NCBI GenBank assembly: GCA_009691245.1
Contig: SHUM01000007.1
Span: forward strand, 1 to 64,000
Direction of reading: 5' to 3'
Source: Acidobacteriota bacterium
Lineage (GTDB): Bacteria > Acidobacteriota > Terriglobia > 2-12-FULL-54-10
DNA length: 64,000 bases
Shown here: one piece after another, positions 711 to 5,665 of the stretch
How positions within the stretch are numbered: position 1 is the stretch's first letter
Layout: the number at the start of each line of letters is the position of its first letter
The notes under the pieces: model-generated
Seen by the model: only the letters and a program-made list of their open reading frames with translations
Databases searched by the model: none
What the model was told of the DNA's origin: nothing
Made by a program: the position numbers and the translations under genes

Positions 711-1967
711 ATGGACGAACCCGTGAGCAGCCATCCCGACAAATCGATTCGCAATATAGAGGAATGGATCGACCGCATCCGGCAGTGCGATGTGCGCGCC
801 GTCGCGCGCGCCATCTCAGCTATTGAGAATCGCTCAGCGGATTCGGCGGCCCTGCTCAGCGGACTCCGCGCGCAATCCGTGCAAACTTTGCGCCATTCCG
901 CTGTCGTGGGAATCACCGGCGCGGCGGGAACCGGCAAGAGTACGCTCACCGATGCGCTGATTACGGAGCTGCGCCGACAGAGCAAGACCGTCGGCGTGCT
1001 GGCCATCGACCCCAGCAGCTCTGTTAGCGGCGGCGCGCTTCTGGGCGACCGCATTCGTATGCAGGCGCATGGCCTCGACCCCGGCGTGCTGATTCGCAGC
1101 ATGGCCACGCGCGGGGCAGTCGGTGGATTAGCGGCGGCCACGCGCAATGCCGTCGCGGTGCTGGACGCCGCGGGAAAGGATTTCATCCTGATTGAAACAG
1201 TCGGCGTCGGGCAGGACGAAATCGCCGTCGCACAACTGGCGGACGTAACCGTGTTATTGCTGGCTCCAGGAACAGGCGACGGCGTGCAGGCCATGAAGGC
1301 CGGTCTGATGGAAGTGGCCGACATTTACGTGCTGAACAAAGCGGATGATGCTGGCGTGGCTCAGCTCGAAGCGGATGTCGTTGAAAGCCTGCAACTGCGG
1401 GAGCCGGATGAAAGCAATCAGTCAGCGCGATTGGCTCCGATTGTCCGAACAGTGGCCACGGAAGGCACAGGAGTGCCACAATTGATATTGGCGATCGCAG
1501 ATTTGCTGGCTCCAGGCCGCCCCTCAAAACAGCGGCCAGAGGTTCCCATCAAGGCAGCGCTGGACGACTCGGCCGTTCTCGATCATATGGGAATCGCAGT
1601 TGCGTCAATCGCCGAATCGCTGAAGTTTTACGAGGATGCCATGGGGCTGCGTGTCTCCGGTTATTATGACATTCCGCAGGAATTAACCAGGGTGGCGATG
1701 CTGCCCGCCGGCGAGGCCCGCATCGAGTTACTGGAAGCCACTCAGCCCGACTCTCCCATCGGCCGATTTCTTGCCAGGCGGGGACCGGGACTGCACCACA
1801 TCTGCATTCGAGTTCCTGACCTCGGCGCGGCGCTGGACAAACTAAAGCAGAGCGGAGCGCAGTTGCTGCAGGCAGAACCGCAGGAGGGCGCAGGCGGCCA
1901 TCGCTATGTTTTTGTCCACCCCGCAAGCGCGGGCGGAGTTTTACTGGAACTGGTGCAGGCGCAATAG
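711..1967 (+). CDS. Fusion of MeaB/ArgK-type GTPase and methylmalonyl-CoA epimerase
   Basis: The N-terminal part (about residues 1-270) is a G3E-type GTPase of the MeaB/ArgK family. It has a P-loop GAAGTGKS at 70-77, the family stretch DPSSSVSGGALLGDRIRM, an ETVGVGQDE switch region and the guanine motif NKAD at 209-212. MeaB protects and reloads adenosylcobalamin-dependent methylmalonyl-CoA mutase. From about residue 290 a complete vicinal-oxygen-chelate domain follows (DHMGIAV, then HHICIRV, then LLELV) with the spacing of methylmalonyl-CoA epimerase metal ligands. The usual C-terminal dimerisation arm of MeaB appears replaced by the epimerase. No mutase gene is in the window. A cobalamin adenosyltransferase gene lies 3 kb away. 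Domain identities are strong; the functional link is inferred. Confidence 0.9.
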   Translation: MDEPVSSHPDKSIRNIEEWIDRIRQCDVRAVARAISAIENRSADSAALLSGLRAQSVQTLRHSAVVGITGAAGTGKSTLTDALITELRRQSKTVGVLAIDPSSSVSGGALLGDRIRMQAHGLDPGVLIRSMATRGAVGGLAAATRNAVAVLDAAGKDFILIETVGVGQDEIAVAQLADVTVLLLAPGTGDGVQAMKAGLMEVADIYVLNKADDAGVAQLEADVVESLQLREPDESNQSARLAPIVRTVATEGTGVPQLILAIADLLAPGRPSKQRPEVPIKAALDDSAVLDHMGIAVASIAESLKFYEDAMGLRVSGYYDIPQELTRVAMLPAGEARIELLEATQPDSPIGRFLARRGPGLHHICIRVPDLGAALDKLKQSGAQLLQAEPQEGAGGHRYVFVHPASAGGVLLELVQAQ

Positions 1968-1988: not shown

Positions 1989-2867
1989 ATGCAACCAATC
2001 GAGCAGCGAGCGGAGATCGGCGTGATCGGCGGCAGCGGGCTTTACGGTCTGCCGGGACTTGAGAACATCGAAGAAGTGCGACTGGAGACGCCTTGGGGGC
2101 AACCCTCCGATGCTTACATGCTCGGCACGATGAAGGGACGGCGGCTCGCGTTTCTCGCGCGGCACGGCCGTGGCCACCGAATCCTGCCCAGCGAGCTGAA
2201 CTTTCGCGCCAACATTCATGGCATGAAACAACTGGGCGTCGAGAGAATTCTCTCCTTCAGCGCCGTCGGTTCGCTGCGTGAAGATTTGCCGCCGCAGATG
2301 TTCGTGCTGCCGGACCAGTTCTTTGATCGCACCAGCGGCCGTATCTCCACTTTTTTCGGCAACGGCTGCGTCGCGCATGTCGGATTCGCCGACCCGATCT
2401 GCCCGGAGATGCTCAATTCCTTGGATACGGCTTGCGCCGCGGCGGGAGTCTCCAAACACCGTGGCGGCACCTACGTCTGCATGGAAGGCCCGGCGTTCTC
2501 CACCAAAGCCGAGTCGCATGTCTATCGCTCCTGGAAGATGGACGTCATCGGCATGACCAATTTGCAGGAAGCCAAGCTCGCGCGCGAGGCCGAGATTTGT
2601 TATGCCACCGTCGCGATGGTTACCGATTTCGATTGCTGGCATCCGGATCACGATGCCGTTACCGTGCAGCAGATCGTTCAGAACCTTATGGCCAATGCGG
2701 ACAACGCTACGAAAGTTTTGCTGCACACCCTCGAGAGCGTGCCGAGCGCACGCGGTTGCCGCTGTGGCTCCGCACTGGAGAATTCAATTCTCACCGATCG
2801 CGCCAGGATTCCCGCCGGAACGCGGCGCGACTTGGACCTGCTCATCGGAAAATATCTGGCCAAGTAA
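1989..2867 (+). CDS. mtnP: S-methyl-5'-thioadenosine phosphorylase
   Basis: This 292-residue protein of the purine nucleoside phosphorylase family splits methylthioadenosine with phosphate into adenine and methylthioribose-1-phosphate, the first step of methionine salvage. Visible hallmarks are IGVIGGSGLYG near the start, the phosphate-site segment RHGRGH, the central MEGPAFSTKAES and the VTDFDCWH segment with the adenine-binding aspartates. Length is normal for MTAP. The ATG at 1989 is preceded by GGAAAGG. A competing ATG four bases upstream is in another frame. It lies 21 bases after the MeaB-epimerase gene and 27 bases before a PfkB kinase, so co-transcription is likely. Confidence 0.93.
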   Translation: MQPIEQRAEIGVIGGSGLYGLPGLENIEEVRLETPWGQPSDAYMLGTMKGRRLAFLARHGRGHRILPSELNFRANIHGMKQLGVERILSFSAVGSLREDLPPQMFVLPDQFFDRTSGRISTFFGNGCVAHVGFADPICPEMLNSLDTACAAAGVSKHRGGTYVCMEGPAFSTKAESHVYRSWKMDVIGMTNLQEAKLAREAEICYATVAMVTDFDCWHPDHDAVTVQQIVQNLMANADNATKVLLHTLESVPSARGCRCGSALENSILTDRARIPAGTRRDLDLLIGKYLAK

Positions 2868-2894: not shown

Positions 2895-3809
2895 ATGAGT
2901 TTATTGGTTGTGGGATCGGTGGCGTTTGATGCGGTAAAGACACCGCATGGAAACATTGATCGCATGTTGGGAGGGTCGGCCAGCTACTTCGCCGTGGCGG
3001 CCAGCTACTTCACTCCGGTGCGGATTGTCGGCGTGGTGGGCGACGACTTCGCGGACGAGCATCATCAGGTCTTCCGCGACCGCGGCGTCTGCACGGAGGG
3101 TCTGGAGCGCGTGGCGGGCAAGACGTTTTTCTGGTCCGGTGAGTACAGCCCGAATATGAACGACCGCACCACGCTCGACACGCAGCTCAATGTATTCGCC
3201 ACCTTTGAACCCAAGCTTCCGGAGCATTACCGCAAATCACCCTATCTATTTCTTGGCAATATTGATCCGGAATTGCAGACTCGCGTGCAGCGTCAGATGC
3301 AAGACCCGCGCCTGGTCGCCGGCGACACCATGAATTTCTGGATCGAAGGGAAACGCGAGCACTTGATCGAAACATTAAAAGGCCTGCACGTGTTGCTGAT
3401 CAACGACTCGGAGGCCCGTCTATTGAGCGGCGAGTGGAATCTGGCCAAGGCCGCCCGCGCCATTCGCAGCTTCGGGCCACATACGGTGGTCATCAAGCGC
3501 GGCGATAACGGCGCGACGATTTATCAGGATGGACACATCTTCAGCGCTCCGGCGCTGCCGCTGGAAGTTGTCCACGATCCCACCGGCGCGGGCGACAGCT
3601 TCGCGGGCGGGTTCATGGGCTACCTCGCTTCCCTGCCCCCCTCCAAGGATGAGATTGCGCCCAATGATTTACGGCGCGCCGTGATCTTTGGCTCCGTTAT
3701 GGGCAGCTTCACGGTGGAGCAGTTCGGTCTGGATCGCCTGCGCCACCTGAATCGCGAAGAGATCGACAGCCGCTTCCGAGTATTCCAGAAATTGACTCAG
3801 TTTGAGTAG
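2895..3809 (+). CDS. PfkB-family sugar/nucleoside kinase
   Basis: A 304-residue ribokinase-fold kinase. The N-terminus begins MSLLVVGSVAFDAV and has the substrate-binding GGSASYFAVAA segment near residue 25. The C-terminal signature DPTGAGDSFAGGF starts at 228 and carries the catalytic aspartate at 234 (GAGD). A strong GGAGG site precedes the ATG. The substrate cannot be read from sequence. Its position directly after methylthioadenosine phosphorylase suggests a nucleoside or ribose-type substrate, for example adenosine, but this is inference. An inverted repeat follows the stop codon. Confidence 0.88.
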   Translation: MSLLVVGSVAFDAVKTPHGNIDRMLGGSASYFAVAASYFTPVRIVGVVGDDFADEHHQVFRDRGVCTEGLERVAGKTFFWSGEYSPNMNDRTTLDTQLNVFATFEPKLPEHYRKSPYLFLGNIDPELQTRVQRQMQDPRLVAGDTMNFWIEGKREHLIETLKGLHVLLINDSEARLLSGEWNLAKAARAIRSFGPHTVVIKRGDNGATIYQDGHIFSAPALPLEVVHDPTGAGDSFAGGFMGYLASLPPSKDEIAPNDLRRAVIFGSVMGSFTVEQFGLDRLRHLNREEIDSRFRVFQKLTQFE

Positions 3810-3836
3810 CTCGCGTGTTGTGATTTTCCTATTCGA

Positions 3837-3867
3837 CTGTCATCCTGAGCGCAGCAAAGGATGACAG
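3837..3867. repeat. Short copy of the GTCATCCTGAGCGCAG palindrome family
   Basis: Perfect 10-base arms CTGTCATCCT (3837-3846) and AGGATGACAG (3858-3867) enclose GAGCGCAGCAA. The core resembles the ends of the larger palindromes at 24221, 40976 and 49736, so this looks like a short or truncated member of that family. It lies between the PfkB kinase and the MetE-like gene and may act as a weak terminator. Confidence 0.6.
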
Positions 3868-5062: not shown

Positions 5063-5665
5063 TCAATGAAAACTTGCGCCGGTTTCCGGTTCGCCGGCCA
5101 GGCCATTCACGTGGCGCGCCAGAACGAACAACAGGTCGGAGAGCCGGTTGAGGTAAATCAGTACGGGCTGGTTCACTTTTTCCACGGCCATCAGGGCGAC
5201 GGCAATTCGTTCCGCGCGGCGGGCGACCGTACGCGCCAGATGCAGCAGAGCGCCGGCCTCGCTTCCACCGGGCAGTATAAATTCCTTTAGCGGCGGGAGT
5301 TTTGAATTGTAATGCTCCGTCGCCTCTTCTAATCTCTCCACTTCGCTAAAGGCGATACGGCGAATCGCCCGTTGACTGCTGTCCGCTTCATCCGGCTGAG
5401 GCGTGGCCAAGTCTGCTCCCATTACAAAAAGGTGGTTCTGAATCTCTTGCAGCAGCGACTCTATTTCCCGCGGCGTTTCTCCACTCGATGCCAAAGCGGA
5501 TTGGCCCTGGCGGAGTTTCTGCCGAATCAGACCCAGCAACGAATTAAGTTCATCGACATCGCCGATGGCCGCAACGCGGGCCGAGGCTTTGCTGACGCGC
5601 TCGCCGTTGACCAGGCTCGTTTGGCCGGCGTCTCCGGTCTTGGTGGTAACTTTGCTGATTCTCAC
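5063..5665 (-). CDS. PduO-type cob(I)alamin adenosyltransferase
   Basis: Transfers the adenosyl group of ATP to cob(I)alamin, making adenosylcobalamin. The N-terminal ATP motif TKTGDAGQTSL starts near residue 8. The helix with ILPGGSEAGALLHLARTVARRAER carries the conserved arginines of the PduO/ATR family. At 200 residues the length is typical. The start is GTG at 5665, sharing its G with the TAG stop of panC (TAGTG), which indicates translational coupling. The product would supply the cofactor for methylmalonyl-CoA mutase, the client of the MeaB domain encoded at 711-1967. Confidence 0.92.
   Translation of the reverse strand: MRISKVTTKTGDAGQTSLVNGERVSKASARVAAIGDVDELNSLLGLIRQKLRQGQSALASSGETPREIESLLQEIQNHLFVMGADLATPQPDEADSSQRAIRRIAFSEVERLEEATEHYNSKLPPLKEFILPGGSEAGALLHLARTVARRAERIAVALMAVEKVNQPVLIYLNRLSDLLFVLARHVNGLAGEPETGASFH

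Follow-up and report, generated by a model that had tools for sequence, protein, structure and literature searches.

A MeaB GTPase fused to methylmalonyl-CoA epimerase in Acidobacteriota, with the epimerase in the place of the dimerization arm

MeaB and MMAA, G3E GTPases of the TIGR00750 and PF03308 families, are homodimers held together by a C-terminal arm that also acts as a hinge. When they dock to the B12 domain of the mutase, one of the two protomers rotates, and the nucleotide site of one chain is completed by switch III of the other (PMC9974510, PMC10356863). IcmF, the fused isobutyryl-CoA mutase/GTPase, is likewise a natural fusion of a MeaB-type G-domain into an AdoCbl mutase pathway. 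Its G-domains are monomeric in the crystal, and must either oligomerize transiently or work differently (PMC10481361). The methylmalonyl-CoA epimerases (MCE; TIGR03081, VOC superfamily) are homodimers in the relatives that have been studied. Human MCEE is a dimer with Ile53 in its interface, and its metal ligands are His50, His122 and Glu172 (PMC6525113). The known MCE structures are of stand-alone proteins, whereas in the locus described here the epimerase makes up the C-terminal half of a protein that begins with a GTPase.

The locus lies near the start of the window, by which is meant the whole 64,000-nucleotide stretch of Acidobacteriota DNA that was analyzed. Positions 711–1967 of the forward strand hold a single ORF of 418 amino acids, with an ATG start and no internal stop. 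In profile searches, residues 32–264 match the Pfam MeaB family PF03308 (4.6e-73, 246 bits, cut-off 23.1), residues 27–264 match TIGR00750 (253.6 bits, cut-off 240.75), and residues 290–416 match the epimerase family TIGR03081 (133.4 bits, equivalog cut-off 114.95). MeaB and epimerase, which the sequence-only reading had placed in one polypeptide, are thus both found above curated cut-offs in one ORF. The contrast that it drew with IcmF also holds: the NCBIfam IcmF model scores 152 bits against a cut-off of 1500, matching only in the G-domain, the mutase domain is absent from the chain, and the source genome has a separate IcmF gene on contig C27. The two proteins are alike in that their G-domains are not paired by an arm, but IcmF joins the G-domain to the mutase itself and the present fusion joins it to the epimerase. 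There is some doubt about the start codon, since the ATG is replaced by TTG in the sister species (G001).

The MeaB G-domain (residues 27–265, positions 789–1505, forward strand) aligns to M. extorquens MeaB at a constant offset of 8. The motif residues described in the latter are the P-loop 62–70, Asp92, Arg108, Glu154 and the switch III residues Asp182, Gln185 and Lys188 (PMC9974510). In the fusion, the P-loop is found at 70–78, followed by D100, R116 (switch I), E162 (switch II), D190/Q193/K196 (switch III) and a base-specificity loop, N209-K210-x-D212. The likeness to MeaB and MMAA therefore spans the full G-domain, with the P-loop, switches I–III and base-specificity loop. Across 13 armless fusions, D100, R116, E162 and D190/Q193/K196 are invariant, and so is the P-loop at most of its positions.

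The MCE domain (residues 289–416, positions 1575–1958, forward strand) is complete as well. Alignments to 3RMU, 3OA4 and S. coelicolor MCE place the VOC metal ligands at H292, H363 (in an HH motif at 362–363) and E413, with E339 at the position of a Gln ligand in the S. coelicolor enzyme; Ile295 corresponds to the interface Ile53 of human MCEE. The fusion lacks the general base of the actinobacterial enzyme, E43 in S. coelicolor (mutated in PDB 6XBR/6XBS), and has V328 there. However, the human enzyme also lacks it, with Val at this position, and 3OA4 has Ile, so that E43 is not family-defining and V328 is no argument against epimerase activity. At this position the fusion most resembles enzymes of the human and B. 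halodurans type. E324 is a candidate general base.

Between the two domains, where MeaB and MMAA have their C-terminal arm, the fusion has only a linker of about 20–25 residues (positions 1506–1574, forward strand), compared to 70–75 residues for a normal MeaB arm. An arm HMM, built from the C-terminal tails of unfused relatives, gives –2.6 bits on this linker, while most intact arms score 50–107 bits; this bears out the proposal that the arm has been replaced by the epimerase. A single-chain AlphaFold2 model from a 32-row alignment, with a mean pLDDT of 86, predicts both domains confidently and the linker as disordered, the pLDDT falling below 50 and reaching its minimum at residues 278–284; its pTM is 0.66, and as a single-chain model it is uninformative on the dimer. 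The best PDB fold match of the first half is M. extorquens MeaB, and those of the second half are bacterial and human epimerases.

Is the junction real? The sister species has the same ORF, 87% identical; in the linker the two differ by an indel of 6 nt, which keeps the frame. Between the two, dN is 0.069 and dS 0.232, for a dN/dS of about 0.3 overall (about 0.28 for the GTPase and 0.30 for the epimerase), and the fused ORF is thus under purifying selection. When the frames were read, some 50-odd armless fusions across the class proved to be single ORFs, several of them on single-contig genomes. The sister-species ORF, the dN/dS and this recurrence together rule out a frameshift or assembly error. 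The sequence-only reading had considered that close homologues might all be separate proteins and the junction an error: in the family's other genera the close homologues are indeed separate genes, but the junction itself is genuine and recurs. An automatic open-frame flag was rejected as proof of fusion, as several flagged cases are same-frame pairs split by a stop. Long matches in Romboutsia, Clostridium and Defluviitaleaceae were likewise rejected, being adjacent separate genes.

Nor is the fusion a one-off, as it had first been taken to be. MeaB–MCE fusions are frequent in Acidobacteriota, and many have the arm. Such arm-bearing fusions, as well as adjacent meaB–mce pairs, in Acidobacteriota and Armatimonadota have the same two genes in the same order, but keep the 70–75-residue arm between the domains. 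They include seven of the first eight long-linker fusions and ten further members of the phylum (20–87 bits with the arm HMM); the only one known outside Acidobacteriota is L081 (Armatimonadota). The eighth long-linker fusion, L048 (G009), has an arm region of the usual length, but a degenerate one that scores 1.3 bits; it may be midway in losing the arm, or its draft sequence may contain a frameshift. Since fusion is frequent in the phylum, arm-bearing cases included, the loss of the arm is the distinctive feature here.

A single match across both domains was found in 66 of 399 genomes of the same class, from 16 genera in families f1, f5 and f9, and among the families sampled only three have the armless form. 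From named relatives, the f5-type fusions belong to Bryobacteraceae/Solibacteraceae and the f9-type to Acidobacteriaceae, including isolate KBS 89. Trees were made of the GTPase core, the epimerase and both combined. In all three, the Acidobacteriaceae fusions adjoin the separate genes of Acidipila, and those of Bryobacteraceae sit among that family's unfused genes. For the source genome's own genus, the epimerase tree (support 97) and the combined tree (99/96) both group its two fusions with separate genes from other genera of its family; the tree of the GTPase alone leaves them on a long, unplaced branch. In AU tests on the combined set, in which the fusion groups were merged in pairs, the grouping of the own genus with Acidobacteriaceae was rejected (p 1.7e-7), as was that of Acidobacteriaceae with Bryobacteraceae (p 9.8e-6); the rejection of the own genus with Bryobacteraceae is the weakest of the three (p 0.021). 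A single origin of all armless fusions is thereby rejected. Given that separate arm-bearing genes are likely ancestral, the armless fusion has at least three independent origins. A plasmid origin is unsupported, the plasmid matches covering the MeaB core only.

The long branch raises the matter of decay, in which the protein would be mainly an epimerase with a GTPase that lacks chaperone function, or the reverse. The own-genus branch does measure 1.04 changes per site for the GTPase versus 0.35 for the epimerase. However, none of the P-loop, switch or base-specificity residues has been lost, and dN/dS is alike in both halves. Moreover, a search of the source genome (G000) found no second MCE match and no stand-alone MeaB, leaving no other such protein to serve its split mutase, and decay of either half is very improbable. 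That mutase consists of a 535-aa MCM catalytic subunit (C30:34491–36035) and a small B12-binding subunit in a separate 145-aa ORF on another contig (C15:44914–45246), and is presumably the client of the GTPase. The genome also has a carboxyltransferase that could belong to a propionyl-CoA carboxylase.

The adjacency of mce and mutase-pathway genes has long been known. In the Terriglobia families where the surroundings are visible, mtnP usually comes after meaB and mce, be they fused or separate, and pfkB often does as well. Here, these are an MtnP-like phosphorylase (1989–2867, forward strand; PF01048) and a PfkB-family sugar kinase (2895–3809, forward strand; PF00294), both in positions conserved in relatives. 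Since the order is kept whether or not the genes are fused, the fusions happened in situ. Among the possible substrates of MtnP-type phosphorylases is 5'-deoxyadenosine, which arises as a by-product when AdoCbl mutases are inactivated, and the operon may thus couple mutase upkeep to 5'-deoxyadenosine salvage. On the opposite strand, 3 kb from the fusion, is a PduO-type, MMAB-like cobalamin adenosyltransferase, which makes AdoCbl (5063–5665, reverse strand; PF01923, 2.2e-61), followed by panC and panB. In many Acidobacteriota (L185–L188, L190–L193, L198 and others), an arm-bearing meaB and mce lie in the same frame with one stop between them, so that one base change is enough for fusion or fission.

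Why was the arm lost? Among 106 sampled loci with both genes, it is missing in 35 of 43 fusions versus 2 of 63 separate pairs (retained in the other 61), so that 35 of the 37 armless MeaBs are fused, although with phylogenetic correction the association does not reach significance, the independent pairs being too few. On the linkers of the 35 armless fusions, the arm HMM scores no higher than 5.9 bits. The two armless MeaBs that are unfused are found in G006, of the same family as the source genome, and L134 (Bryobacteraceae). In L041 (G006), an armless MeaB lies on the reverse strand at 3560–3850 next to an unfused epimerase; in L134 (2150–2330) the epimerase is also adjacent and unfused, and the MeaB stop overlaps its start (TGATGG). 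Provided that neither is a frameshift in the draft or a secondary split, they show that no covalent link is needed for the arm to be lost. Conversely, the many fusions that keep it imply that fusion alone does not demand its loss.

One could suppose that nothing more than neutral joining was involved: adjacent, co-translated and often in-frame genes would have merged through the loss of a stop codon or through small deletions, so as to be made in equal dosage, with the arm being dispensable if MeaB were monomeric like IcmF. The many relatives with both genes in one frame, a single stop codon apart, agree with this, as do the two unfused armless MeaBs, and IcmF, which gets by with G-domains that the crystal shows as monomers (PMC10481361), suggests that the arm may not be needed at all. 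On the other hand, the arm is retained in nearly all of the separate pairs, the armless form has arisen at least three times and is stable over 16 genera, and the switch III residues, which act only across the dimer, are still invariant. Neutral fusion is therefore rather unlikely.

The reading that we prefer, with a probability of roughly one half, is that of a bifunctional protein of the propionyl-CoA/methylmalonyl-CoA pathway, mutase chaperone and epimerase in one, fused in place, in which the epimerase dimer has replaced the arm. The N-terminal half would serve the split AdoCbl-dependent methylmalonyl-CoA mutase as its G-protein chaperone, and the C-terminal half would be the only detected methylmalonyl-CoA epimerase of the genome. 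Two adjacent genes would have been joined where they stood and the MeaB C-terminal arm deleted. The epimerase homodimer would then pair two GTPase domains via the flexible linkers, taking over from the arm as both dimerizer and hinge, and upon docking of the mutase B12 domain, switch III of one GTPase would complete the nucleotide site of the other. We infer the pairing of the G-domains by the epimerase, both activities and the mutase partner. Such pairing is the simplest joint explanation of the facts that the residues of switch III acting in trans were kept, the arm was lost and a dimer-type domain was gained. Several points weigh against the epimerase as a substitute for the arm: the two unfused armless MeaBs, unless these are draft errors or secondary splits; the many fusions that keep the arm; the lack of significance of the association after phylogenetic correction; and the monomeric G-domains of IcmF.

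The placement of the epimerase beside the mutase might be a side benefit of this arrangement. It could also be its main purpose, as the sequence-only reading proposed: the epimerase would be kept next to the mutase while the GTPase is docked, raising the local concentration of (R)-methylmalonyl-CoA or signaling to the cofactor-loading step that substrate is available, with the loss of the arm being incidental. The two enzymes, sole copies in the genome, do catalyze consecutive steps, and the recurrence of arm-bearing fusions in several families makes it seem that proximity or equal dosage alone is favored. However, the docking of MeaB on the B12 domain of the mutase is transient, the turnover of the epimerase is not known to be a bottleneck, and the concentration of arm loss in the fusions is left unexplained. 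Tethering is thus a weaker rival of arm replacement, or an addition to it, and unlikely as the whole explanation; the repeated loss of the arm points to the epimerase dimer as its substitute at least as much as to tethering.

No published description of a MeaB–MCE fusion was found in the open-access literature, which was the scope of the search; domain databases may list the architecture. The switching of MeaB and MMAA between inactive and active dimers, and the role of the arm therein, are current questions, and MMAA defects cause methylmalonic aciduria. In these bacteria the arm has disappeared on at least three occasions, its place being taken by the epimerase of the very pathway that MeaB serves. 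Tentatively, the epimerase dimer may on each of these occasions have been recruited as the hinge that switches a B12-loading G-protein between its inactive and active dimers, in which case the binding of substrate to the epimerase could influence cofactor loading. The epimerization of the substrate and the loading of the cofactor might in this way be physically coupled. The arm-bearing separate, arm-bearing fused, armless fused and armless separate proteins form a comparative set that bears on whether the arm is a mere dimerizer and hinge, replaceable by another dimer.
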